Virus record (IMG/VR): IMGVR_UViG_3300024948_000004
Span: 1-20,130 of that record
DNA from: a virus
Strand: one strand, 5' to 3'
DNA: 20,130 bases
Part shown: positions 1,743-11,504 of the stretch, one piece after another
How the letters are laid out: each line of letters starts with the position of its first letter
How positions within the stretch are numbered: position 1 is the stretch's first letter
Position numbers and translations under genes: made by a program
Notes under the pieces: model-generated
Databases searched by the model: none
Seen by the model: only the letters and a program-made list of their open reading frames with translations
What the model was told of the DNA's origin: nothing

Positions 1743-2312
1743 TTAAGCGCTGGCGCTCAAAGTCTTTTTGTAGTCTTCAGGTGATACGCCCATCTGTTTG
1801 CATACGGCTAATTGCGATTCAGTCAGGTCGGTAACACCGTCGCCATCGGGAATCTTGCCGCCGGTTTGCGTGTTGGTTAAAGCCACAATTGGTTGGGCTG
1901 TATCAAGATAAGATTTCAAAGCGGCGATATCTTTAGCGCCAAGTTCACGCGCCCAAGCTTCCTGCGCTGGCAACAATCGGCTACTAGATAAAGCGACCGT
2001 TACCAGGTCTTCTACTTCGCCGTCGTTAATCTGTTTGTTAAGCGCTGCGAGTTGCGTTTGCAGGTCTTGCATGACTGATAGCGGCACAAACTTGGCAGGG
2101 TCAGGGGTTTCAATCTGCGCGGTCAGGCTTGCGATTGATTGATGCTGTTCCCTTAAGTGGTTAGTCAGGTTAAAGCTTGTCGCAGCCGTAGCGTTGTCAG
2201 CTTTAATCAGATCTACCGCTTTATTGACCTCAGTCAAAATGTCATCAGCAGTGGCCAAAGTTGGCAGGTTGAACATCCAGCGCAAGCGCTCTAGTAATTC
2301 GTCTAAGTCCAT
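1743..2312 (-). CDS. Probable nested scaffold protein (Mu Z-like), in frame within I
   Basis: An in-frame ATG at 2312 (MDLDELLERLR) is preceded by GGAGAG about nine bases upstream, better than the Shine-Dalgarno of the full-length gene. The 189-residue product would be the helical, charged C-terminal half of the protease polypeptide, rich in Leu, Gln and Glu and ending in a Lys-containing tail. In phage Mu the scaffold gene Z is nested in frame inside protease gene I, so the same arrangement is expected here. The start is inferred from the ribosome-binding site and helical composition. Confidence 0.6.
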   Translation of the reverse strand: MDLDELLERLRWMFNLPTLATADDILTEVNKAVDLIKADNATAATSFNLTNHLREQHQSIASLTAQIETPDPAKFVPLSVMQDLQTQLAALNKQINDGEVEDLVTVALSSSRLLPAQEAWARELGAKDIAALKSYLDTAQPIVALTNTQTGGKIPDGDGVTDLTESQLAVCKQMGVSPEDYKKTLSASA

Positions 2313-2843
2313 TGTTAAACTCTCCGTGTTGGTTAAAAGTTTGGAGGCTGCCGCTACGGCAACCTCACTCATGCCGTCTAATGCCGGGTTGTTGGTGATT
2401 GCGCCAAGCAGTACGCTCTCGACTGCACCAGTCTTTTTGCTGTAACTGAATACGGGGGAGAAATAGAGGTACTCTTTGGCTTCGATGTGTGCTTTGGCTG
2501 CGTCGGTCCATTCAACGCCAATCGCATAAAGACCATCGCCTTCACGCCATTCAAGCTGCTTAAACCAACCGGCGGCTGGGGCAGGCTTGCCATTCTCTGC
2601 GGCTAAAAGGGTTTGATGTTCGTAGTCAATCACCAGACGGTTTTGACGGGCTGATACTTCAGCAATGATTGAGGCTGCAATGGTGGCGTCGATATACCAG
2701 GCTTTAACATCTGTTGGCCTGCCATCTGTGGCACGAAACTCACCGGCAGGAAGAATCTGCAGATCGGCACCGGTAGTTAATTCAAAACTACAAGCCGCGA
2801 TTGCGGCGTTAATCAGCTTGCGTGGGTTTTGTTTGTGTTTCAT
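1743..2843 (-). CDS. I: Mu-like head maturation protease (protein I, gp32-like)
   Basis: Processes head proteins during capsid assembly. From the ATG at 2843 the product is 366 residues; in-frame ATGs at 2852 and 2858 would add three or five residues. The N-terminal half carries the Mu I-like pattern: a short N-terminal region with FELTTGADLQILPAGEF, then RLVIDYEHQT, AAGWFKQLEW, YLYFSPVFSY and LLGAITNNPALDGM. The C-terminal half is helical and charged, as expected for a scaffold. It is the first gene of the second late unit. No good Shine-Dalgarno precedes any of the starts (at best GGTG two bases before 2843). A conserved dyad lies 37 bases upstream of 2843, and a CCCAT-GAAA-ATGGG hairpin (2848-2861) covers the alternative starts. 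Confidence 0.88.
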   Translation of the reverse strand: MKHKQNPRKLINAAIAACSFELTTGADLQILPAGEFRATDGRPTDVKAWYIDATIAASIIAEVSARQNRLVIDYEHQTLLAAENGKPAPAAGWFKQLEWREGDGLYAIGVEWTDAAKAHIEAKEYLYFSPVFSYSKKTGAVESVLLGAITNNPALDGMSEVAVAAASKLLTNTESLTMDLDELLERLRWMFNLPTLATADDILTEVNKAVDLIKADNATAATSFNLTNHLREQHQSIASLTAQIETPDPAKFVPLSVMQDLQTQLAALNKQINDGEVEDLVTVALSSSRLLPAQEAWARELGAKDIAALKSYLDTAQPIVALTNTQTGGKIPDGDGVTDLTESQLAVCKQMGVSPEDYKKTLSASA

Positions 2844-2896
2844 GGCACCCATTTTCATGGGGCATGGGGTTTAGTGCGATACTGAGTGGCTTCAGT
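2844..2896 (-). promoter_or_regulatory. Late promoter 2 (head genes): dyad and -10-like element
   Basis: A dyad, ACTGA-N6-TCAGT, occupies 2881-2896 and is an exact 16-bp copy of the one at 9377-9392. It lies 37 bases before the ATG at 2843. A -10-like GAAAAT lies at 2856-2851 on the minus strand, about 37 bases below the dyad centre. No -35 element is evident. This matches the known Mu middle/late design, in which a Mor/C-family dimer binds near -43 and replaces the -35 contact. Activation by the Mor homologue is inferred. Confidence 0.6.
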
Positions 2897-3099
2897 GAGG
2901 GTGTGCAGGGGTTAGAACGTTGCCACTTTTTTAGACTACGCCTTATAAAAAATACTGGCAACTGTTAGTTTTATTAATAACGCTTTCTATTCTCGATAAA
3001 AACACCGCCTAGAATAGCGTTAAACCCCCGTTAAAAACGATTGTTTAATATTTTGCTAGTGTATGCCGCTTAAAACTATCTTATCGCCTTTAATCGGCC
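2875..3099. other. Non-coding gap between head gene units
   Basis: No gene is visible in these 225 bases. It holds the late promoter dyad (2881-2896), an 18-bp A-tract element (2926-2943) shared with the other late promoter, and an interrupted inverted repeat: AACGCT 2979-2984 and ATTCT 2989-2993 against AGAAT 3011-3015 and AGCGTT 3016-3021. A transcript ending downstream of the minor head gene would be expected here, but I see no clear stem followed by a T-run on the minus strand. Confidence 0.6.
2926..2943 (-). repeat. A-tract element shared by both late promoters (copy 1)
   Basis: Matches 16 of 18 bases with 9421-9438. Both copies lie 28-29 bases outside the promoter dyad on the upstream side. 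On the minus strand the shared core is GCGTAG followed by an A-run. It could be an upstream promoter element, a bend, or a remnant of the duplication that produced the two promoters. Confidence 0.55.
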
Positions 3100-3882
3100 T
3101 TAACTATTTTTTGCAGCTTTTGCCAGATCATCAGGTAAACGTGCCATTTTTTCGGCAAGCATTTTATTCAGATTTTGCTGGCGGCCACCGGGTGCGTAAT
3201 TAAACGCCGGATCTACGCCCTTGGGTACCTGCTGCACTTCACCGGTGCGTTTGTTGGTATAGCTGTACTTAGGCACGGCAGGTGCTTCAGATACCGTTAA
3301 ACCACGGCGCTCAAGCATGCCAGCGCTCATTTGAATCACACGGCATTTGCAGCCCCAAGCTTTAACCGGCATGTGTGATTGCCAGAAAGGATCATCAGCA
3401 GGCAGTATCATGCCATCCCATGCAGCATGTGCCAGACGTGGGTGTTCGCTGTTATTGCCATCGTATTGCAGGTAGGGGAATGATGCCTTGCTCTCCTGTA
3501 TGCGCTGCCACTGGCCTTCGCTATGCGCTGTACGCAGGTTGGTATCGTAGATCACCTTCAGTCTACGGGTGCTACCCAGCTGCACGTTCTTTATCTCGCC
3601 TGTCAGCGGGTCTTCAACATCAGCCTTACCCCACCATCCTTTTTGAACCAATAACGGTTTAAGCAGCTTGCGAAACGTGGCAAAGGTTGTGCCATCTGCC
3701 AGTGCAGCATCAACCGCCTGGCGAATATCTTCAAGCAGATCTATTTGCATAGCTTTGGCCACGGTGAAGGCGGCTTGATGTTCTTGCTGCCATACATCCT
3801 CCCAGCTAAAGCCAACAAGATAACCTTTCTGCCTGAAGTATTCGATGGCCTCTTTAGGAGGTAGTGGTTTTAGCTCAAACAT
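3100..3882 (-). CDS. F: Mu F-like minor head / head morphogenesis protein
   Basis: A 260-residue minor capsid protein of the Mu F / SPP1 gp7 family, expected to lie inside or at the portal vertex and assist head morphogenesis and DNA ejection. The family signature is clear: YDTNLRTAHSEGQW (about 112-125), HPRLAHAAWDGMILPADDPFW (147-167), HxPVKAWGCKCRV (170-182) with the paired Cys 178 and 180. The start overlaps the portal stop by one base (TAATG-type junction at 3882). It is shorter than Mu gp30 and looks like the single-domain form. It is the last gene of the first late unit in this window. Confidence 0.92.
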   Translation of the reverse strand: MFELKPLPPKEAIEYFRQKGYLVGFSWEDVWQQEHQAAFTVAKAMQIDLLEDIRQAVDAALADGTTFATFRKLLKPLLVQKGWWGKADVEDPLTGEIKNVQLGSTRRLKVIYDTNLRTAHSEGQWQRIQESKASFPYLQYDGNNSEHPRLAHAAWDGMILPADDPFWQSHMPVKAWGCKCRVIQMSAGMLERRGLTVSEAPAVPKYSYTNKRTGEVQQVPKGVDPAFNYAPGGRQQNLNKMLAEKMARLPDDLAKAAKNS

Positions 3883-5441
3883 TATTCAGTGTCTGGGCCA
3901 TTCACTCGCCCCCAAATGCCTGCAGCAAACTGACCTTGCGTTAAAGCTTCAGTTACCAGGCTAATATCCATGCCAGCTATTAATTCTGGCAATCTGGATT
4001 GAAACTCCTCATAACTTTGCACCGATGCAGCTAACGCGGCAATTGGCTCAATTAACGGGTTAGTGACTCGCTCCCAGTCGCCTGCCAACTCTTCAGATAA
4101 AACATCAAACTCATCTTGATCAAGCAACGCCGTCGCGGCAGCAACTCTTGTTGCAGCTGCTTGGTTAGTTTGTCCTGGCACTTCTTTTTTTGCAGGCTGC
4201 AGTACTGCTTCACCTTCTTTTGGTAACGGTATTCCAAGCTTCTCATGCGCCCAATTAACAGGCACTTGCACGCCAATGGCAACCAATGGAGGCAGTGCGT
4301 CTGAGTAGGTCTTAATGTCTTCAGGCTCACGTAGATCAAACTGCCATTTAGGCATGCGGCGTGCATCTTCAATACCGCCAAGGTTAAGCGCAATCAATGG
4401 GTAAACAATATCCCTGGTGAGCGTACCTGCAAGCTGCATTGCATCTGACATCATCAAGTCATGACGTACTTCGTTGTGTACATTGCCCAGTGCATTAGTG
4501 CTGCTTTTTCCGTCAGCTTGGCTTGTAAGTGTGCCGCCAAGAATCGCCTTACTTTGGGTACGTTCGCACCAATCAATCATTGCTTGGAATGGTTCATGTG
4601 AGCCTTGGGCCGCATCTTTAAAATCAATCTCCATGCCCTCAGGAATAATGCCAGCGGCATCATGGCCAATAGCTAACACAGCACGTAGTAGCGTGGCTTT
4701 TTCATCATCACCTGATCCGCTTGGGTATTTTCCTAGGCGCAATGGCAAACCATAAATCTCAAGGAATTCTGCAAGATCTCGTACACTGTAATTTTTGAAC
4801 AGGTATGGCCATGCCAGTACACGGTGCAGACCTGATCTTGCAATGTAGCCGGACTTTGCCTTGTGAATATGTTTAACCCAGCCGAACGGTTGCAGTGCTT
4901 GGCCGTTAAGTGAGTTATCACGTAAGCGAAGCTCAGTGCGTGTTTCATTATCGGTTTTAAACCAGCTTTGTGGTCTGTGCGTTATTTCTTTTGGCAGCCA
5001 AGTGCGGCCAAGCAATTGCCACTCAATTTCTTGGCATGAAAAACCGTGCCCAATCGCATCAAGCGCATCAAGTATCACGTCTTCAATATTGGCAATATCC
5101 ATCACCAGCTCTTTAGCTTCAGCTGCGATCTTCTTTTCTTTCGCACTTGGGTTGCGTGGCGGCACTATGTCCCAGCTAATCTTCAACAAAGCACGCTTAC
5201 GCTTGCTCATCTCAGAAAAGATATGGCCGTCTTTCTCTTCCATATCTAAAAACAGATCATGCTGCGCACGAATGTCGCCTTGCTCGGCATTTTCCATAAT
5301 TCGCGCCAGTTTTATAGGCGTTAAACCACGGCTTGGGTGACCTGCAAACTCATGATGTAAACCGCCAACTTTGGCGGTCTGTGATTCTTTTAACTCCGGC
5401 TTTTTAATTGGCTGCCCGTGTTGATCTAGTATCGCTACCAT
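3882..5441 (-). CDS. Portal protein, DUF935 family (Mu gp29-like)
   Basis: A 519-residue portal, the dodecameric ring at the head vertex through which DNA is packaged. Recognisable DUF935 features include TPIKLARIMENAEQGD near residue 40, a SEMSKRKRALL segment, HPRQSWF-type residues in the middle (HRPQSWFK), PYLFKNYSVRDLAEFLEIYGLPLRLGKY (about 213-240) and IIPEGMEIDFKDA. It overlaps the end of the terminase large subunit gene by seven bases and is followed by the F-like gene, which is the standard Mu head order. The last 100 residues are acidic and helical. Confidence 0.94.
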   Translation of the reverse strand: MVAILDQHGQPIKKPELKESQTAKVGGLHHEFAGHPSRGLTPIKLARIMENAEQGDIRAQHDLFLDMEEKDGHIFSEMSKRKRALLKISWDIVPPRNPSAKEKKIAAEAKELVMDIANIEDVILDALDAIGHGFSCQEIEWQLLGRTWLPKEITHRPQSWFKTDNETRTELRLRDNSLNGQALQPFGWVKHIHKAKSGYIARSGLHRVLAWPYLFKNYSVRDLAEFLEIYGLPLRLGKYPSGSGDDEKATLLRAVLAIGHDAAGIIPEGMEIDFKDAAQGSHEPFQAMIDWCERTQSKAILGGTLTSQADGKSSTNALGNVHNEVRHDLMMSDAMQLAGTLTRDIVYPLIALNLGGIEDARRMPKWQFDLREPEDIKTYSDALPPLVAIGVQVPVNWAHEKLGIPLPKEGEAVLQPAKKEVPGQTNQAAATRVAAATALLDQDEFDVLSEELAGDWERVTNPLIEPIAALAASVQSYEEFQSRLPELIAGMDISLVTEALTQGQFAAGIWGRVNGPDTE

Positions 5442-7048
5442 GCGCCACCTCCTGTTGATTCTCTATTTGATTTACCTGCGCCTTGGTAGTCCATACCGCC
5501 GCCTAATGAAAGGGCGGCTGCCCACAGCATTTGTAGCGCGTCTGGCCCATCGTCATGATCTGCTTTTGGCCAGTGCCTTAATTGCTCAATAAGCGTATGG
5601 AGGCTAGGGTGCAGCCTGATTAAGCCGTTAGCCATGTGTGGTTGCATGCTTTCAATACGCAGTTCTTTATCTGTTGACGGAGTTACGCCACGTGCAGGCA
5701 CTGGCACTCTTCGCTTTGCAGACCTTTTCACCAACTCGGTACGCATAAACTCCTGAAACTGTACCGATTCAACTAGCCATAACTGGCACTTGTACTCAAT
5801 CTGGTAGCTGATTACGTCTTCAATAATGCGATCAGGCAGTCGTTTGCGAATGCTGGCTTCAACCACATCGAGTATGCCAGTGCTGCGGTTATAGCCGCCT
5901 ACCAGAATTGCTGATGGGTCACGGCCTGCGCCTTTTTTGCCAAGGCTTGGGTCGCATGCACCATAAAATACCCACTCGTTAAGGCGGTTAACCCAAAAGG
6001 TAATGCACTTGGCAAAGGGTGCGTCGTCATCACTGAGCGGGTCGTTTTGCAGCTCAGAGTCAAACGCTGCATGCCCGTCACGGGCGCGTATTGTCATTAA
6101 CACAACCAGCGGGCGGGCGGTTGGCCAGCTCACTGCTGCGCCTGCTTCCATCTGTGGTTTGTGTGCCTGGTAAAACTCTTCTGCCAGCTGCTTGCCTACA
6201 TTAAGCAGTAGCTCTTCCCATCGATCCCACAGGTCCATTCTGTTAGGCCATGTGATCAGTGCGCGAAATTTTTTGCCATTCCACAGCGGGTTTTTAATCA
6301 GGCGTGATAGCACGCTGTCGTAGTGCAGAATGGTGCCAATGATGATGACGTCGAACTTTTCGCCCGGCTCACCAAGTTTAAGCACGGCTTTGTTGATCCA
6401 CGCTTCAAGTTTGTCGCGCTGGGCAGGGCTGGCTACGTTCTCATCGTTCTCAAGGTCATCGCCCACAAACAGATCAGGGCGATATGGGCCATGCCTACGG
6501 CCACGAATGCGTTTCCCGCTGCCTACGGCCTCAATTTTTACGTTACCGGCGGTCAGTATCACTTCAGCACGCCAGATACGGCCTTGGCCTGTAGCGGTTG
6601 GATAATCCATTATCAAACGCGGGTTGTATGCCAGCTCGGCTTTAATCGCCTCCAGCATAATGGCGGCCTGATCAAAAGCATCCATGCCGATAATGGGGTA
6701 ATGCTTGCGGCCAGTGATCACGCACCAGATCACAAACAACTGTGTGGTGATGGTTGATTTAGCCTCACCACGCGGCGCTGCCAGTGCGTCGGTTTCGCTC
6801 TCGGTGCTGTTTACGATCTCCGGCAGGCGCTTGTACAGGTGATCATGCAGAATGCTGTTGTCTTTTTTAACGTAGTGCGGAAAGTAGGTTTTACAAAAGA
6901 ACTCAAAGTTATCGTGCGCCTGCAAACGGCGCTGACGTGCGCTTTCAGCATCAGACTTGAAGCCTGAAACGTCCGCTTCAATCTTATTGCGTAGTGATTG
7001 GCCAAGCTCTGCCAGCTGCTCTAAAAACTCTTTGCCGTTCTTAGCCAT
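5435..7048 (-). CDS. Terminase large subunit (Mu gp28-like)
   Basis: ATPase and nuclease that cuts and packages DNA headful-wise into proheads. Residues 91-99, APRGEAKST, form the Walker A-like loop (Lys97); LFVGDDLEND at 193-202 is Walker B with the acidic pair. VIIIGTILHYDS (234-245) is the coupling motif. The RNase H-like nuclease carries CDPSLG (Asp366), Glu427 in WLVESVQFQEF and the C-terminal DHDDGPDALQ (Asp499-503). At 537 residues it is normal for the family. It starts just inside the small membrane protein gene and overlaps the portal gene, so translation is likely coupled. Confidence 0.95.
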   Translation of the reverse strand: MAKNGKEFLEQLAELGQSLRNKIEADVSGFKSDAESARQRRLQAHDNFEFFCKTYFPHYVKKDNSILHDHLYKRLPEIVNSTESETDALAAPRGEAKSTITTQLFVIWCVITGRKHYPIIGMDAFDQAAIMLEAIKAELAYNPRLIMDYPTATGQGRIWRAEVILTAGNVKIEAVGSGKRIRGRRHGPYRPDLFVGDDLENDENVASPAQRDKLEAWINKAVLKLGEPGEKFDVIIIGTILHYDSVLSRLIKNPLWNGKKFRALITWPNRMDLWDRWEELLLNVGKQLAEEFYQAHKPQMEAGAAVSWPTARPLVVLMTIRARDGHAAFDSELQNDPLSDDDAPFAKCITFWVNRLNEWVFYGACDPSLGKKGAGRDPSAILVGGYNRSTGILDVVEASIRKRLPDRIIEDVISYQIEYKCQLWLVESVQFQEFMRTELVKRSAKRRVPVPARGVTPSTDKELRIESMQPHMANGLIRLHPSLHTLIEQLRHWPKADHDDGPDALQMLWAAALSLGGGMDYQGAGKSNRESTGGGAW

Positions 7049-7235
7049 TTTTTAAGCCTGTCTTAATGGTTTTTATAATGGAAAGTACCCACACAAGCGG
7101 CCAAAATAAGGATAAGAAAAACAGATATGACCATGCAAATAGCTGCTTATAAAAAGGCTCTTTATTTAACATTTCTGACAGCAAGCCTATTGAGTAGCAA
7201 AAAAAACATAAGGCAATGTGAAAATACAAACTCAC
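7041..7235 (-). CDS. Small two-helix membrane protein
   Basis: A 64-residue product with a GTG start sharing GTGA with the stop of the terminase small subunit, and a stop eight bases inside the terminase large subunit gene. GGGGTG lies about five bases before the start. Two hydrophobic segments (about 3-19 and 32-53) flank a short polar loop, and a basic tail follows. It is more AT-rich than its neighbours. No family is recognised. Placement between the two terminase genes is unusual and suggests an inserted accessory gene. A holin-like role is possible but not shown. Confidence 0.65.
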   Translation of the reverse strand: MSLYFHIALCFFCYSIGLLSEMLNKEPFYKQLFAWSYLFFLSLFWPLVWVLSIIKTIKTGLKNG

Positions 7236-7732
7236 CCGAACACCCCGCTGATTTTCTCGCCGAATGGCTCCAGCATGGTTAAGAATGGCTCTGTAAGGTG
7301 TGGGTGCTGCTCCTGAATAAATCCAGCCAGCATTTGCAGTACTTCCATTGCCACCGCCAGTTTGTTAAGTTTCGGGTTAGATTTAGCCGCCGCGCTCATG
7401 GCTTTGTTATAAGCATCGCTCAAGCGTGACAGCGCCTCGGCTTTAGCCATTGGTGTGCCTTTTACATCAGTTTTGAGCTGCTCTATGGTGCTTTGAAAAA
7501 GCGTCATAAACTCTTGCAATACCATCTGGCTAACGGCTTCGTGGCCTGCACCAGCCATCATTGAGGCTGTGCGGGCTTTATCCCAATCGTCACCGGCGGC
7601 CTTGGCTTCGCGCTTCCAGCGGCTGGCAGTACCAAACGAGATACCAAGCTGTTCTGCTGCGGCTTCAAGACTTAGCGCTTTATGTACATTGGCGCTGCGT
7701 AACGCGCGACGTGTTTCTTCACCGTAGGCCAT
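7232..7732 (-). CDS. DUF1804 family protein, probable terminase small subunit
   Basis: A 166-residue protein with an N-terminal helix-turn-helix: SLEAAAEQLGISFGTASRWKREAK at about 21-44, followed by the DUF1804-type KAAGDDWDKARTASMMAG. The remainder is helical, consistent with oligomerisation. In Mu-like phages this gene precedes the large terminase and is taken to recognise the packaging site. It starts just downstream of the coiled-coil membrane protein gene and shares its stop with the GTG of the next small gene. Confidence 0.88.
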   Translation of the reverse strand: MAYGEETRRALRSANVHKALSLEAAAEQLGISFGTASRWKREAKAAGDDWDKARTASMMAGAGHEAVSQMVLQEFMTLFQSTIEQLKTDVKGTPMAKAEALSRLSDAYNKAMSAAAKSNPKLNKLAVAMEVLQMLAGFIQEQHPHLTEPFLTMLEPFGEKISGVFG

Positions 7733-7735
7733 TGA

Positions 7736-7969
7736 TTAACGCATCCCGGTCACTGTTTTTAATTTTTCAATGGCAATAGCCATGCCTATGCTGATAATGC
7801 CGCCAGAGATAGCGCCATTTAACGCGGCTTTGTTTTCTACCTTGCGCAGGCGTTCATCTAAGCCATCAAGCTTTTTTTCAAAGGTTTCTTTTTGATCGGC
7901 TTGGCCATCAATCACGAGATCAAGCTTTCCCTTGATCTCACCCAGCAAACGACTCTCATCGGAATTCAT
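7736..7969 (-). CDS. XhlA/holin-associated-like coiled-coil membrane protein
   Basis: A 77-residue product. Residues about 5-48 are charged with heptad-like spacing (EIKGKLDLVIDGQADQKETF, KLDGLDERLRKVENK), and residues 50-68 (NGAISGGIISIGMAIAI) form one membrane helix. This layout is typical of XhlA-like proteins in phage lysis cassettes. It could assist or act as a holin. It lies between the DksA-like zinc-finger gene and the terminase small subunit. Confidence 0.65.
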   Translation of the reverse strand: MNSDESRLLGEIKGKLDLVIDGQADQKETFEKKLDGLDERLRKVENKAALNGAISGGIISIGMAIAIEKLKTVTGMR

Positions 7970-7988
7970 TATTGTTTTTCTCCATTAT

Positions 7989-8216
7989 TCAAGGCAGGCG
8001 CCCGTACTGTTCACTAAAGGCCTTACACTCCGTACAAAGCCGCACACCCGGGTAGGCAATCCTTCGCGCCTCCGGTATTACTTCACCGCAACTCGGGTTA
8101 ACACATACTTCGGCAGAGGGCAGCTTTCCTGCGTTTTTGACTCTTGCCCTAACCGTATCAATGCCACTGTCTCTTTCAGCGAATTCAAGCCGCTGCGCTT
8201 CGTCTGCTGGCAGCAT
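7989..8216 (-). CDS. TraR/DksA-type zinc-finger protein
   Basis: A 75-residue protein. The C-terminal half is CVNPSCGEVIPEARRIAYPG followed by VRLCTECK, which matches the TraR/DksA zinc-finger pattern. Such proteins bind in the RNA polymerase secondary channel and can alter host or phage promoters without ppGpp; TraR is the plasmid example. The first Cys pair (38 and 43) is separated by four residues, not the usual two. The gene starts immediately after the stop of the membrane-anchored protein gene. It is common in late modules of Mu-like phages. Confidence 0.88.
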   Translation of the reverse strand: MLPADEAQRLEFAERDSGIDTVRARVKNAGKLPSAEVCVNPSCGEVIPEARRIAYPGVRLCTECKAFSEQYGRLP

Positions 8217-8828
8217 TTACCACCTCACCCATGCGCCGGTGCCAATAAAATAATCAGTGTCTTGCCCGTTACCAAGCTGCTGATCTACCGAGCCGATTAA
8301 GCCAAAATGCAAAGCCTTAACCTGTAGCAACCCTTGCTTGGCTTCGAGCCGAGCCGTGGGGGTGCCGTTTTTAATCCCCATGTACATGCCTGCTTCACCG
8401 TGGGTATCTACGGCCAGCCAAGGCAGCGGGTCACGTTTAACAAAGGTCTGGCTCTCGCCGGTTTCGGTGTTAATCAGCGTGGTGATGGTTTGTGGATGGT
8501 CGTCAGCCGGTACCTGGTTAGATGCAATTACATCAAGATCAGGGTTGTCCTGAATAATCTGCGGCAGTTTGATGGTGTTTTTAACGGCGGCAGGGTAAAC
8601 CTTAACGGTCTTGGCCTTGATTGGCTTGGCTACCGGCGTCACCTTTTTAACCTCTGGGGCTGGCGTGGCAACAATGTTTAAGCCGACGGGTGCGGTTGGC
8701 AGCGTTGATTGATAGCGCTGGTAGGCGTGATTAATGCCATAAATAGCGCCAATAAGCACAGCAGCTACAAACAGCCACATGAAGGCTTCTGTTCGTTTTA
8801 GATTATCCAACAATGGGTTGCCCTCCAT
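8217..8828 (-). CDS. Membrane-anchored lysis-cassette protein, unknown
   Basis: About 203 residues from the ATG at 8828; a TTG at 8849 is the alternative. A short cytoplasmic N-terminus is followed by one membrane helix (MWLFVAAVLIGAIYGINHAY, about 17-36), a Pro/Lys/Val-rich linker, and a C-terminal domain with Gly-rich turns ending in GTGAWVRW. The predicted topology is N-in with a long periplasmic part. It overlaps the endolysin gene by 26 bases, so a lysis role is plausible (spanin-like or endolysin helper), but I recognise no family and see no Rz/Rz1 pair. Confidence 0.7.
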   Translation of the reverse strand: MEGNPLLDNLKRTEAFMWLFVAAVLIGAIYGINHAYQRYQSTLPTAPVGLNIVATPAPEVKKVTPVAKPIKAKTVKVYPAAVKNTIKLPQIIQDNPDLDVIASNQVPADDHPQTITTLINTETGESQTFVKRDPLPWLAVDTHGEAGMYMGIKNGTPTARLEAKQGLLQVKALHFGLIGSVDQQLGNGQDTDYFIGTGAWVRW

Positions 8829-9339
8829 CTGCCGGAGCGACAGGCGCAATGGGCGTTAAACACATGGCGCGTTCAGCCTGGCGGCGCTTGGTCAACCCAA
8901 ACACCGGCACCAGCTTGCCGTTTACCCTGGCTTTGTTGTAAGCCAGTATGCGGTCACACGCGGCGGTGTAATTGCCTTCGTTGAGCTCATCAATCAGGTA
9001 CTTGTTTTTAGGCAGGCCAGACTTGCACACGGTGCCTGCGCCCACGTTGTAGGCGAGCGATACAAAAGCGTTGTATTGGTTTTGGTTCATCGGTACATTC
9101 ACGCAGGCCAGCACAGCCTTGCCGTGTGCGGTTAGCTCTTGCTTGAGCAGCGTATCGCACTCTTTTTTGCCGTAGGTTTTGCCCTTGATAATATCCGGGC
9201 CGGTGTAGCCATTGCATACTGTGAGTACTCCGGCAATGTCGTGATAGGGCTTTAACTCGGTGCCCTCCCAGCCGCCAACAAAGGCGAGTAGGGATGCACT
9301 GGTAACGCCTGCTAATAGTATTTTGTATGATGCTCTCAT
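8803..9339 (-). CDS. Endolysin, GH24 lysozyme with signal-anchor (SAR-type) N-terminus
   Basis: Hydrolyses the N-acetylmuramic acid-N-acetylglucosamine bond of peptidoglycan at lysis. From the ATG at 9339 the catalytic triad is Glu25, Asp34 and Thr40, with the same spacing (+9, +15) as T4 lysozyme. Residues about 7-22 (ILLAGVTSASLLAFVG) are weakly hydrophobic and rich in Ala, Ser and Gly, as in signal-anchor-release endolysins. Six Cys residues could form redox-sensitive disulfides. A GTG at 9378 is an alternative start but lies inside the promoter dyad. There is no Shine-Dalgarno before 9339. It is the first gene of late unit 1. Confidence 0.92.
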   Translation of the reverse strand: MRASYKILLAGVTSASLLAFVGGWEGTELKPYHDIAGVLTVCNGYTGPDIIKGKTYGKKECDTLLKQELTAHGKAVLACVNVPMNQNQYNAFVSLAYNVGAGTVCKSGLPKNKYLIDELNEGNYTAACDRILAYNKARVNGKLVPVFGLTKRRQAERAMCLTPIAPVAPADGGQPIVG

Positions 9340-9392
9340 GTAACCGATGGTATGGCATGAGGCTTGTGAATGCGCCACTGAGTGGCTTCAGT
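9340..9392 (-). promoter_or_regulatory. Late promoter 1 (lysis/packaging genes): dyad and -10-like element
   Basis: ACTGA-N6-TCAGT at 9377-9392 is identical over 16 bp to the dyad at 2881-2896. It lies 37 bases before the ATG at 9339, exactly the same distance as at the other site. TACCAT at 9352-9347 (minus strand) is a -10-like hexamer in the same position as GAAAAT at the other promoter. The site follows a strong terminator, as expected for a new transcription unit. Binding by the Mor-family protein is inferred. Confidence 0.62.
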
Positions 9393-9395
9393 AGC

Positions 9396-9427
9396 AAAAA
9401 GGGGCGCTGAACAGCACCCCCTTTTTT
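9396..9427. terminator. Bidirectional rho-independent terminator
   Basis: GGGGCGCT (9401-9408), loop GAAC, AGCACCCC (9413-9420) form an eight-pair stem with one G-U pair. Read on the minus strand it is followed by TTTTT (from 9400-9396); read on the plus strand it is followed by CTTTTTT (9421-9427). It ends transcription of the early region and lipoprotein gene before the late lysis promoter. Confidence 0.87.
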
Positions 9428-9452: not shown

Positions 9453-9896
9453 TCAACATGCTGAATTCGAGCATTTAAGTATACCTTTTAATGCAATTAT
9501 TGCCTCCGTGTGAGGTTGACCGCTCTTTCTTAAACCCACATAAAGTGCTGCATTTTCTGCGAATTTTGAGTCTTTAATATAAGCCAAAGTAGTTGCTTCC
9601 AACATTTCCATTGGGCTGACATCAATACCTTCAGCCTTGATAATTTTAGAGGCTTTAACTGCCATATCTGCAATATTTTCTTGAGGCTCATCATACTGCT
9701 CACTAGCTCTTTGCAGCAGCTCTTTTGCACGAATTGTAGTTTTGTCTGAAGCATCAACCTCATGACCAGCATTGACTATAGCAAATTGATGTTCAATGCT
9801 TAATTTTTTATAATCCAATTCTGCATGCTGCTCATCAGCTCCACATGCAACCAATAAAGTCATAGCCAATATTACTAATATATTTTTTATCGTCAT
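9453..9896 (-). CDS. Predicted outer-membrane lipoprotein (moron-like cargo)
   Basis: A 147-residue protein with a lipoprotein signal peptide: basic TIKN, hydrophobic ILVILAMTLL, and lipobox L15-V16-A17-C18. Gly at +2 favours outer-membrane sorting. The mature part is helical and charged, ending with two Cys (KCSNSAC). GAGG lies seven bases before the ATG. It is AT-rich compared with its neighbours, has a palindrome upstream at 9918-9935 and a strong terminator downstream, so it forms a small separate unit between early and late regions. Such units often act in the lysogen, for example in superinfection exclusion. No family is recognised and that role is inferred. Confidence 0.75.
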   Translation of the reverse strand: MTIKNILVILAMTLLVACGADEQHAELDYKKLSIEHQFAIVNAGHEVDASDKTTIRAKELLQRASEQYDEPQENIADMAVKASKIIKAEGIDVSPMEMLEATTLAYIKDSKFAENAALYVGLRKSGQPHTEAIIALKGILKCSNSAC

Positions 9897-9917: not shown

Positions 9918-9935
9918 TTTTAGTACATACTAAAA
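9918..9935. promoter_or_regulatory. 18-bp palindrome at the end of mor
   Basis: TTTTAGTA-CA-TACTAAAA is a perfect inverted repeat with 8-bp arms. It overlaps the stop codon of the Mor-family gene and lies 21 bases upstream of the lipoprotein ATG. No T-run follows on the minus strand, so it looks more like an operator or promoter element than a terminator. Confidence 0.5.
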
Positions 9936-10340
9936 CAACTGAGTCTGCCCGTCACCCATTTCAGTTTTTTTAAGTATGTTCCAGATCTGTCTATCACTCA
10001 AACTATGTTCTCTGGCAAGGTTTTCAACAGCTTCACCTTCGTTAAAGCGGTTCACAATCTCGCGGTCTCTTTTCAGGCGCAGGCCATCTGCACAGCGCGG
10101 TATATATACGTAACGGCTGGCACCGATGGCTTGTATTAACTGGTGCAGCTTTTCTTTACCGATCACCTTTGCAAACTCGTGTTCGTCTGTTGCATTCCGT
10201 ATGGCTGGTAGGCGTTGCGTAGTGCCGCCATACACGTTGATTAATTCAAGCGTGAGTGATTCGCCAATCACTGCAATGACTTCATCCAGTGAGGCTGGCA
10301 GCTTGATTGAGCATTGGTAGTTTTCAATTGCTTTAACCAT
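9930..10340 (-). CDS. mor: Mor-family transcription activator
   Basis: Activates middle or late phage promoters by binding a dyad upstream of -10 as a dimer and contacting RNA polymerase. The 136-residue product has the Mor/C layout: an N-terminal dimerisation region (about 15-90) with GGTTQRLPAIRN and YVYIPRC, then RDREIVNRFNEGEAVENLAREHSLSDRQIWNILKK (93-127), the helix-turn-helix. It overlaps the gp16-like gene by eight bases and ends the early operon. No second activator (Mu C) is seen in the window, so this protein may drive the late promoters directly. Confidence 0.92.
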   Translation of the reverse strand: MVKAIENYQCSIKLPASLDEVIAVIGESLTLELINVYGGTTQRLPAIRNATDEHEFAKVIGKEKLHQLIQAIGASRYVYIPRCADGLRLKRDREIVNRFNEGEAVENLAREHSLSDRQIWNILKKTEMGDGQTQLF

Positions 10341-11219: not shown

Positions 11220-11504
11220 CTAAACAGTCACAGCATCCTTTAATGCTTTTAATGCGCTGAAATGCGGCACATTCTTCTCTGGAATAGCCAAGGATTCACC
11301 AGTTGCAGGGTTGCGGCCTGTACGTGCTGTACGTTTTTTAACGCTTAGTTTGCCAATGCCTGGTAAGGTGATTTCACCGCCTTTTGATAGCTCATCTTTC
11401 GTAACATCAGCCAGAGCATCTAACACAAACTTAATTGCCACTTTGCTAGTGCCAGTGTTGGTGTGGTGGTCTGCAATTGCATTGACTAAATCAGCTTGAT
11501 TCAT
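11220..11504 (-). CDS. HU/IHF-family DNA-bending protein
   Basis: A 94-residue, full-length member of the bacterial HU family. The pattern is complete: MNQADLVNAIADH helix, DALADVTKDELSKGGEITLPGIGKLSV, then the DNA-binding arm KKRTARTGRNPATGESLAIP and the closing helix FSALKALKDAV. AAAGG lies eight bases before the ATG. Mu needs host HU and IHF to build its transpososome and enhancer loop, so a phage copy could support transposition in varied hosts or help condense DNA. It lies mid-way in the early operon. Confidence 0.94.
   Translation of the reverse strand: MNQADLVNAIADHHTNTGTSKVAIKFVLDALADVTKDELSKGGEITLPGIGKLSVKKRTARTGRNPATGESLAIPEKNVPHFSALKALKDAVTV

Follow-up and report, generated by a model that had tools for sequence, protein, structure and literature searches.

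The 20,130-base virus fragment analysed here, which we call the window, contains two copies of one dyad, and comparison with related phages supports reading them as the sites at which an activator acts on two late promoters of Mu type, PI (protease/capsid) and Plys (endolysin/terminase/portal). We consider it likely that each promoter combines activation by a Mor-family protein with a late RNA that has next to no leader and with a lock on the start codon in RNA that reads through from upstream. In this model the Mor-family protein would bind the dyad, which is centred approximately 45 nt before the start codon, would substitute there for the -35 contact and would bring the polymerase of the host to a -10 hexamer located 24 nt beyond the dyad. 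The RNA would begin at the A of the AUG, or no more than 2 nt from it, so that the mRNA translated for the first gene would have no leader or almost none. Read-through transcripts would carry an entire inverted repeat, fold and hide the start codon; the late transcript would start past the left arm of that repeat and leave the start codon open. The lysis and capsid genes would then stay silent until the activator appears, as is the case for T4 lysozyme. The hairpin structure is supported statistically, and from it we infer the effect on translation.

Two dyads and their -10 hexamers in the window

The dyad is the 16-mer ACTGAAGCCACTCAGT, on the minus strand, as are all dyad coordinates given here. 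It is located at 2896-2881 (PI) and at 9392-9377 (Plys) and is identical in both places. A pattern search for ACTGA-N6-TCAGT returned these 2 exact matches and no others in the whole 20,130-base record. At both promoters 37 nt separate the end of the dyad from the ATG (at 2843 and 9339). The hexamers GAAAAT (2856-2851) and TACCAT (9352-9347), also on the minus strand, each begin 24 nt past the dyad and stop 7 nt short of the ATG, and a sigma-70 promoter scan listed no -35/-10 pair at PI or Plys. An earlier sequence-only reading had described the identical dyads, each 37 bases from its ATG, and the two -10-like hexamers at one offset without a -35, and had taken them for Mu-type late promoters. 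Exact matching and the comparison with related phages bear out these points.

GAAAAT is a poor -10 hexamer. The assignment is made by a third copy of the dyad, found in four relatives (L204, L205, L206 and L207) approximately 12 kb downstream of PI, between baseplate genes. Because TATCCT or TATTCT sits at the identical spacing in these four, 24 nt past the dyad, GAAAAT and TACCAT are taken as the -10 elements; the third site thus fixes which of the window hexamers are the predicted ones. The -10 position found in 93 PI regions (see below) agrees for GAAAAT. The third site is preceded by a terminator-like hairpin, folded in one of the four relatives. The same element stands before lys and I in the window, which is truncated, and in the tail region of the four relatives, as in Mu, although the third site is placed after the Mu PP region rather than inside it.

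The first gene of the PI unit encodes protease I of the Mu gene I family (1743..2843, minus strand; PF10123, E 6e-114) and that of the Plys unit an endolysin, the phage lysozyme (8803..9339, minus strand; PF00959, E 1e-34). Protease I has three in-frame ATGs, at 2858, 2849 and 2843. The start at 2843 is backed by relatives, with L010 having the equivalent ATG only, and relatives likewise back the endolysin start MRASYK. Of 145 ATGs in the window that were compared in register with the upstream region of the protease, the endolysin ATG resembles it most closely (score 18; the runner-up scores 13). The window PI-lys pair also scores above each of the 92 foreign PI regions tried against that sequence. 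RNA folding places stable structures upstream of both units, with a clear terminator at lys. This terminator-like hairpin (9396..9425, minus strand; fold -20 kcal/mol, z -4.67) ends the upstream mor unit directly 5' of Plys, its stem running into a T-run. Since both units stand behind stable structures, little read-through may reach them.

Dyads in related phages and the Mor-family activator

Protease I loci were collected from viral contigs (80) and bacterial genomes (80), and the usable upstream regions were reduced to 93 that are non-redundant. An exact search of viral_contigs for the 16-mer found 5 stretches, 2 of them from the sample that yielded the 100%-identical relatives L003 and L007. 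Among named relatives the closest is a Methylotenera prophage, carried by a MAG (L124; protease 77% identical), from which we infer that the host is probably a Methylophilaceae bacterium. The dyad is kept in near relatives, as ACTGAAGCCGTTCAGT in L008 and L009, ACTGAAGCCCCTCAGT in L012 and ACTGAAGCTCCTCAGT in the Methylotenera prophage. More distant phages have other dyads in the same place, including GCGGAA-N4-TTCCGC, AGGAGG..CCTCCT, TGCTGACACGTGTCAGCA, GACGAACCCCGTC and CTAAAGCGCTTTAG. The dyad sequence thus varies between lineages, yet it is often matched between PI and Plys within one phage.

An automatic dyad finder run on single regions often chose other repeats first, so tests based on register and co-variation were used instead. 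Counting perfect inverted repeats whose arms are 6 or longer, the 93 PI regions contain 27, where shuffles give 6.7. Roughly half of the 27 centre between -47.5 and -42.5 from the ATG, seven of them exactly at -44.5. The window dyads, which lack a -35, centre at -44.5/-45.5 from the ATG, a Mu-type position if the predicted start site is correct. The Mor dyad of Mu Pm extends from -51 to -36, centred at -43.5 (PMC4287176); it is 16 bp long, as is that of the window.

The best partner of the PI dyad region often lies upstream of the phage's own lysis unit, as in L009, L010, L014, L021, L023, L032, L142 and L177. When each PI region was compared with the 92 foreign ones on the same stretch, the phage's own region came out on top of the 93 in 16 of 70 loci (0.75 expected), and its p was <= 0.05 in 26 of 70 (3.5 expected); significance values are approximate as the phages share ancestry. 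No significant PI-lys match was present within the searched 10 kb in 44 of the 70 loci. For Mu the best partner of the PI region is the annotated Plys, a match that is not significant alone.

The window encodes a single Mor-family activator (9930..10340, minus strand; PF08765, E 1e-13; phrog_836, late transcriptional activator, E 1e-28). Its recognition helix is LSDRQIWNILK (9969..10001, minus strand), and this helix co-varies with dyad class across phages: SDRxxWxxL is found with TGAA..TTCA, TDRWAQ with GACGAAC..GTC, TERxxR with CGGAA..TTCCG, and TEMRVR with CTAAAG..CTTTAG. The association persists after correction for similarity in the remainder of the protein (partial r 0.26, permutation p 0.0015). 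The co-variation supports direct activation by this protein, which is very probably the activator that binds both dyads. A single-sequence search found no solved Mor structure; the sole match, AlbB, is at chance level (E 0.093).

Does this one protein replace the two activators of Mu? The sequence-only reading had proposed that it switches on both late units directly and that the Mor-to-C relay of Mu has been collapsed into one step. The protein does appear to be the likely binder at both units, on the strength of the helix-dyad co-variation, but the collapse of the relay finds no support, because most phages of this kind have just one such protein: among loci with a Mor-family protein, 69 of 76 have one and 7 of 76 have two. 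The two-copy cases that could be identified are Mu and Morganella-type phages. One Mor-family protein is present in the window, which is a fragment, and likewise one in near relatives with longer records, such as the 33.7-kb relative G001. The one-activator layout is thus the common state, and the two-step relay of Mu could equally be derived.

Three other accounts of the promoters were weighed against activation by the Mor-family protein. The phage may have lost C, leaving Mor to perform both steps of the Mu relay, as the single copy in the window and in the near relatives with longer records would suggest. We think this improbable, given how common the single copy is and how scattered the two-copy phages are; nor does the Mor tree reveal a direction, as it has too many long branches to tell whether one or two activators is ancestral. 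A still less probable account makes the dyads operators for another regulator, either a phage repressor or a host protein. The phage also encodes an S24 repressor, an HTH_35 protein and an HU-like protein, and binding of the dyads by Mor is a prediction. Against this, the dyad position equals that of the Mor dyad of Mu Pm, the -35 element is absent, the dyad sequence tracks the Mor recognition helix, and the same comparison carried out in Mu recovers the C-dependent Plys. Finally, could the repeat be a product of chance, with no function? By simple arithmetic, assuming equal base composition, approximately 0.09 identical 16-mer pairs are expected per 20 kb, and matches to ACTGA-N6-TCAGT with 2 mismatches are at chance level in the window. 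By itself the repeat is no more than mildly surprising; the same offset before two start codons is not a chance expectation. Conservation, matching within phages and the fixed spacing in relatives contradict this account, to which we give almost no credence.

Predicted leaderless starts and the start-codon hairpin

In the 93 PI regions aligned at the ATG, A is present at -11 in 66% and T at -7 in 55%, and the commonest letters that follow are GGCGGC-ATG. The best -10-like hexamer begins at -12/-13 in 50 of the 93, where approximately 5 are expected. Shine-Dalgarno pairing in these regions does not rise above that of shuffled sequence (-1.93 kcal/mol compared with -2.32), whereas other ORFs give -4.98. 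The PI regions thus mostly show the arrangement expected of leaderless genes, with the -10 at -12 to -7 from the AUG and without a Shine-Dalgarno. Because the -10 lies mostly at -12/-13 and the Shine-Dalgarno is absent, the 5' end of the PI mRNA probably lies at the AUG or 1-2 nt upstream, and the late mRNAs would be leaderless or nearly so. The endolysin of the window has the same -10-to-ATG spacing as PI, and transcription is predicted to start at 2843-2845 (PI) and 9339-9341 (Plys). Leaderless starts are not universal among Mu-like phages, because Mu and the Pasteurellaceae phages have short leaders with Shine-Dalgarno sites.

The -10 is enclosed by a further inverted repeat, whose end lies at the start codon or within it. 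Examples are GCCACCG-TAAAAC-CGGTGGC and GCCGCC-CGCACAAT-GGCGGC, each followed directly by ATG, and AGGCCAGC-CTCCTAA-GCTGGCCT-C-ATG. At protease I of the window this repeat covers the -10 and the start codon (2841..2866, minus strand; fold -11.6 kcal/mol, z -2.80), and at the endolysin it covers the -10, the start codon and the first endolysin codons (9332..9363, minus strand; fold -11.0 kcal/mol, z -3.50). In both cases the hairpin could form only in RNA derived from upstream. None of 200 shuffles was as stable as the endolysin repeat, and L009 and L010 retain the pairing at the endolysin start with left arms that differ. By its short-stem score the PI repeat of the window is unremarkable, with 0.099 of the background at least as good; at this site the full fold alone is significant.

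The arms of the hairpin co-vary, because exchanging left arms between phages lowers the stem score from a mean of 7.22 with the phage's own arm to 5.07 (sd 0.25). This exchange was made among the 50 PI regions with the -10 at -12/-13, and replaced column-by-column pair Z-scores, which were noisy. Folding of the stretch from -34 to +12 has a mean z of -2.04 at PI, whereas the start regions of 677 other ORFs average -0.11 (p 8e-19). The folded stretch ends sharply, a 40-nt window beginning at the ATG having z +0.57. At 28 lys promoters the mean z is -2.83 for read-through RNA and +0.39 for the predicted late RNA. The start regions of Mu behave likewise (AF083977), with z -5.15 in read-through against +1.44 in late RNA for I, and -2.74 against +0.77 for lys; these values refer to positions 9523-9568 and 1940-1992 of the Mu sequence (L092), with late starts placed from the -10 and the promoter annotation. 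The left arms of the Mu hairpins are CTGCTCA (PI) and CTGCCATCA (lys). The predicted folds thus sequester the start region in read-through RNA, in the manner of a T4-type lock, and the left arm would be absent from the late RNA if transcription starts where the -10 and the dyad place it.

The start-codon repeats may instead serve Mu-type late promoters in some other way, by aiding promoter opening, protecting RNA ends or terminating upstream transcription, without locking translation. Termination is suggested by the lys promoters of L041, L173 and L177, in which a T-run between the start-region hairpin and the ATG could be an overlapping intrinsic terminator, and a role in opening by the Mu promoters lys, I and P, where C acts on the closed-to-open step and DNA structure at the -10 could matter. 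However, the sequence just before the ATG is T-rich in only 5 of the 93 PI regions, none of them in the window. The PI and lys arms of one phage differ and both still pair, the ATG marks the precise end of the folded stretch, and shuffled sequences fold more than the late RNA does. We consider a function other than the lock to be unlikely, though it is a more serious contender than the other accounts of the promoters given above.

Comparison with Mu, lambda and T4, and other features of the window

The promoters of the window resemble Mu Plys and PI, which are activated by C, and Pm, which is activated by Mor, in having a dyad upstream of the -10, before the same two genes. They are also like the Mu late promoters in the lack of a good -35 and in having one Mor/C-family activator per site. 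The lys and I promoters of Mu share a 10-bp match, which parallels the shared dyad of the window, and their start regions also fold in read-through RNA. Unlike Mu, the window has a different dyad sequence, one Mor-family protein in place of the Mor-to-C relay, and a start predicted at the AUG where Mu has its short leader.

The cI mRNA that phage lambda makes from PRM is leaderless. As at PRM, the predicted 5' end of the window mRNAs is at the AUG and the -10 lies approximately 7 nt before it; unlike cI, which encodes a repressor, the genes concerned head late structural or lysis operons.

Translation locks are known from the T4 genes e (lysozyme), soc, 49 and I-TevI; for gene e, the lysozyme start is concealed in the long early transcripts, and the 5' arm is missing from the late ones (PMC3014915). 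As judged from predicted folds, the late promoters described here likewise overlap the 5' arm of the hairpin, and a lysis gene is the case shared with T4. T4 differs in that it relies on a late sigma factor of its own and has a Shine-Dalgarno in the leader, whereas here an activator-dependent promoter would be used by the host polymerase and the Shine-Dalgarno is absent in most PI regions. We lean, if only slightly, towards a general statement: that Mu-like late operons, Mu included, are doubly gated, by a lineage-specific Mor/C dyad and by a start-codon hairpin around the -10, with the late RNA starting at or near the AUG outside the lock and often leaderless. The logic of T4 lysozyme would then have been reached independently in transposable phages.

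While promoters of this type are known, the leaderless geometry and the start-codon lock appear unreported in the literature searched, which lies mostly outside subscription journals and contained no prior report of leaderless or locked Mu-like late genes. A single repeat would lead to a general rule by which the late regulon and the activator specificity of Mu-like phages could be predicted from sequence. For the classic model, the prediction would be a lock on Mu lys and I in read-through RNA that the late promoter releases. If the late mRNAs are leaderless, they would also offer a natural system for leaderless translation of highly expressed genes.

Other features of the window, all on the minus strand, were noted. 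The major capsid protein (207-1235; Mu gpT family), whose gene has a strong Shine-Dalgarno, starts with MKSRILVLGLAAAAAMAATFAVPLHAHE, an N-terminus resembling a signal peptide, which is odd on a cytoplasmic capsid protein; similar capsid N-termini are found in L009, L010, L012, L013, L014, L015 and L124. Between mor and the endolysin lies a small lipoprotein-like ORF (9453-9896; phrog_36538, which has no assigned function). The phage-encoded HU-like DNA-binding protein (PF00216) is at 11220-11504. The start of an Ala/Glu/Lys-rich protein with near-identical repeats occupies 1-132, where it is cut by the end of the record.
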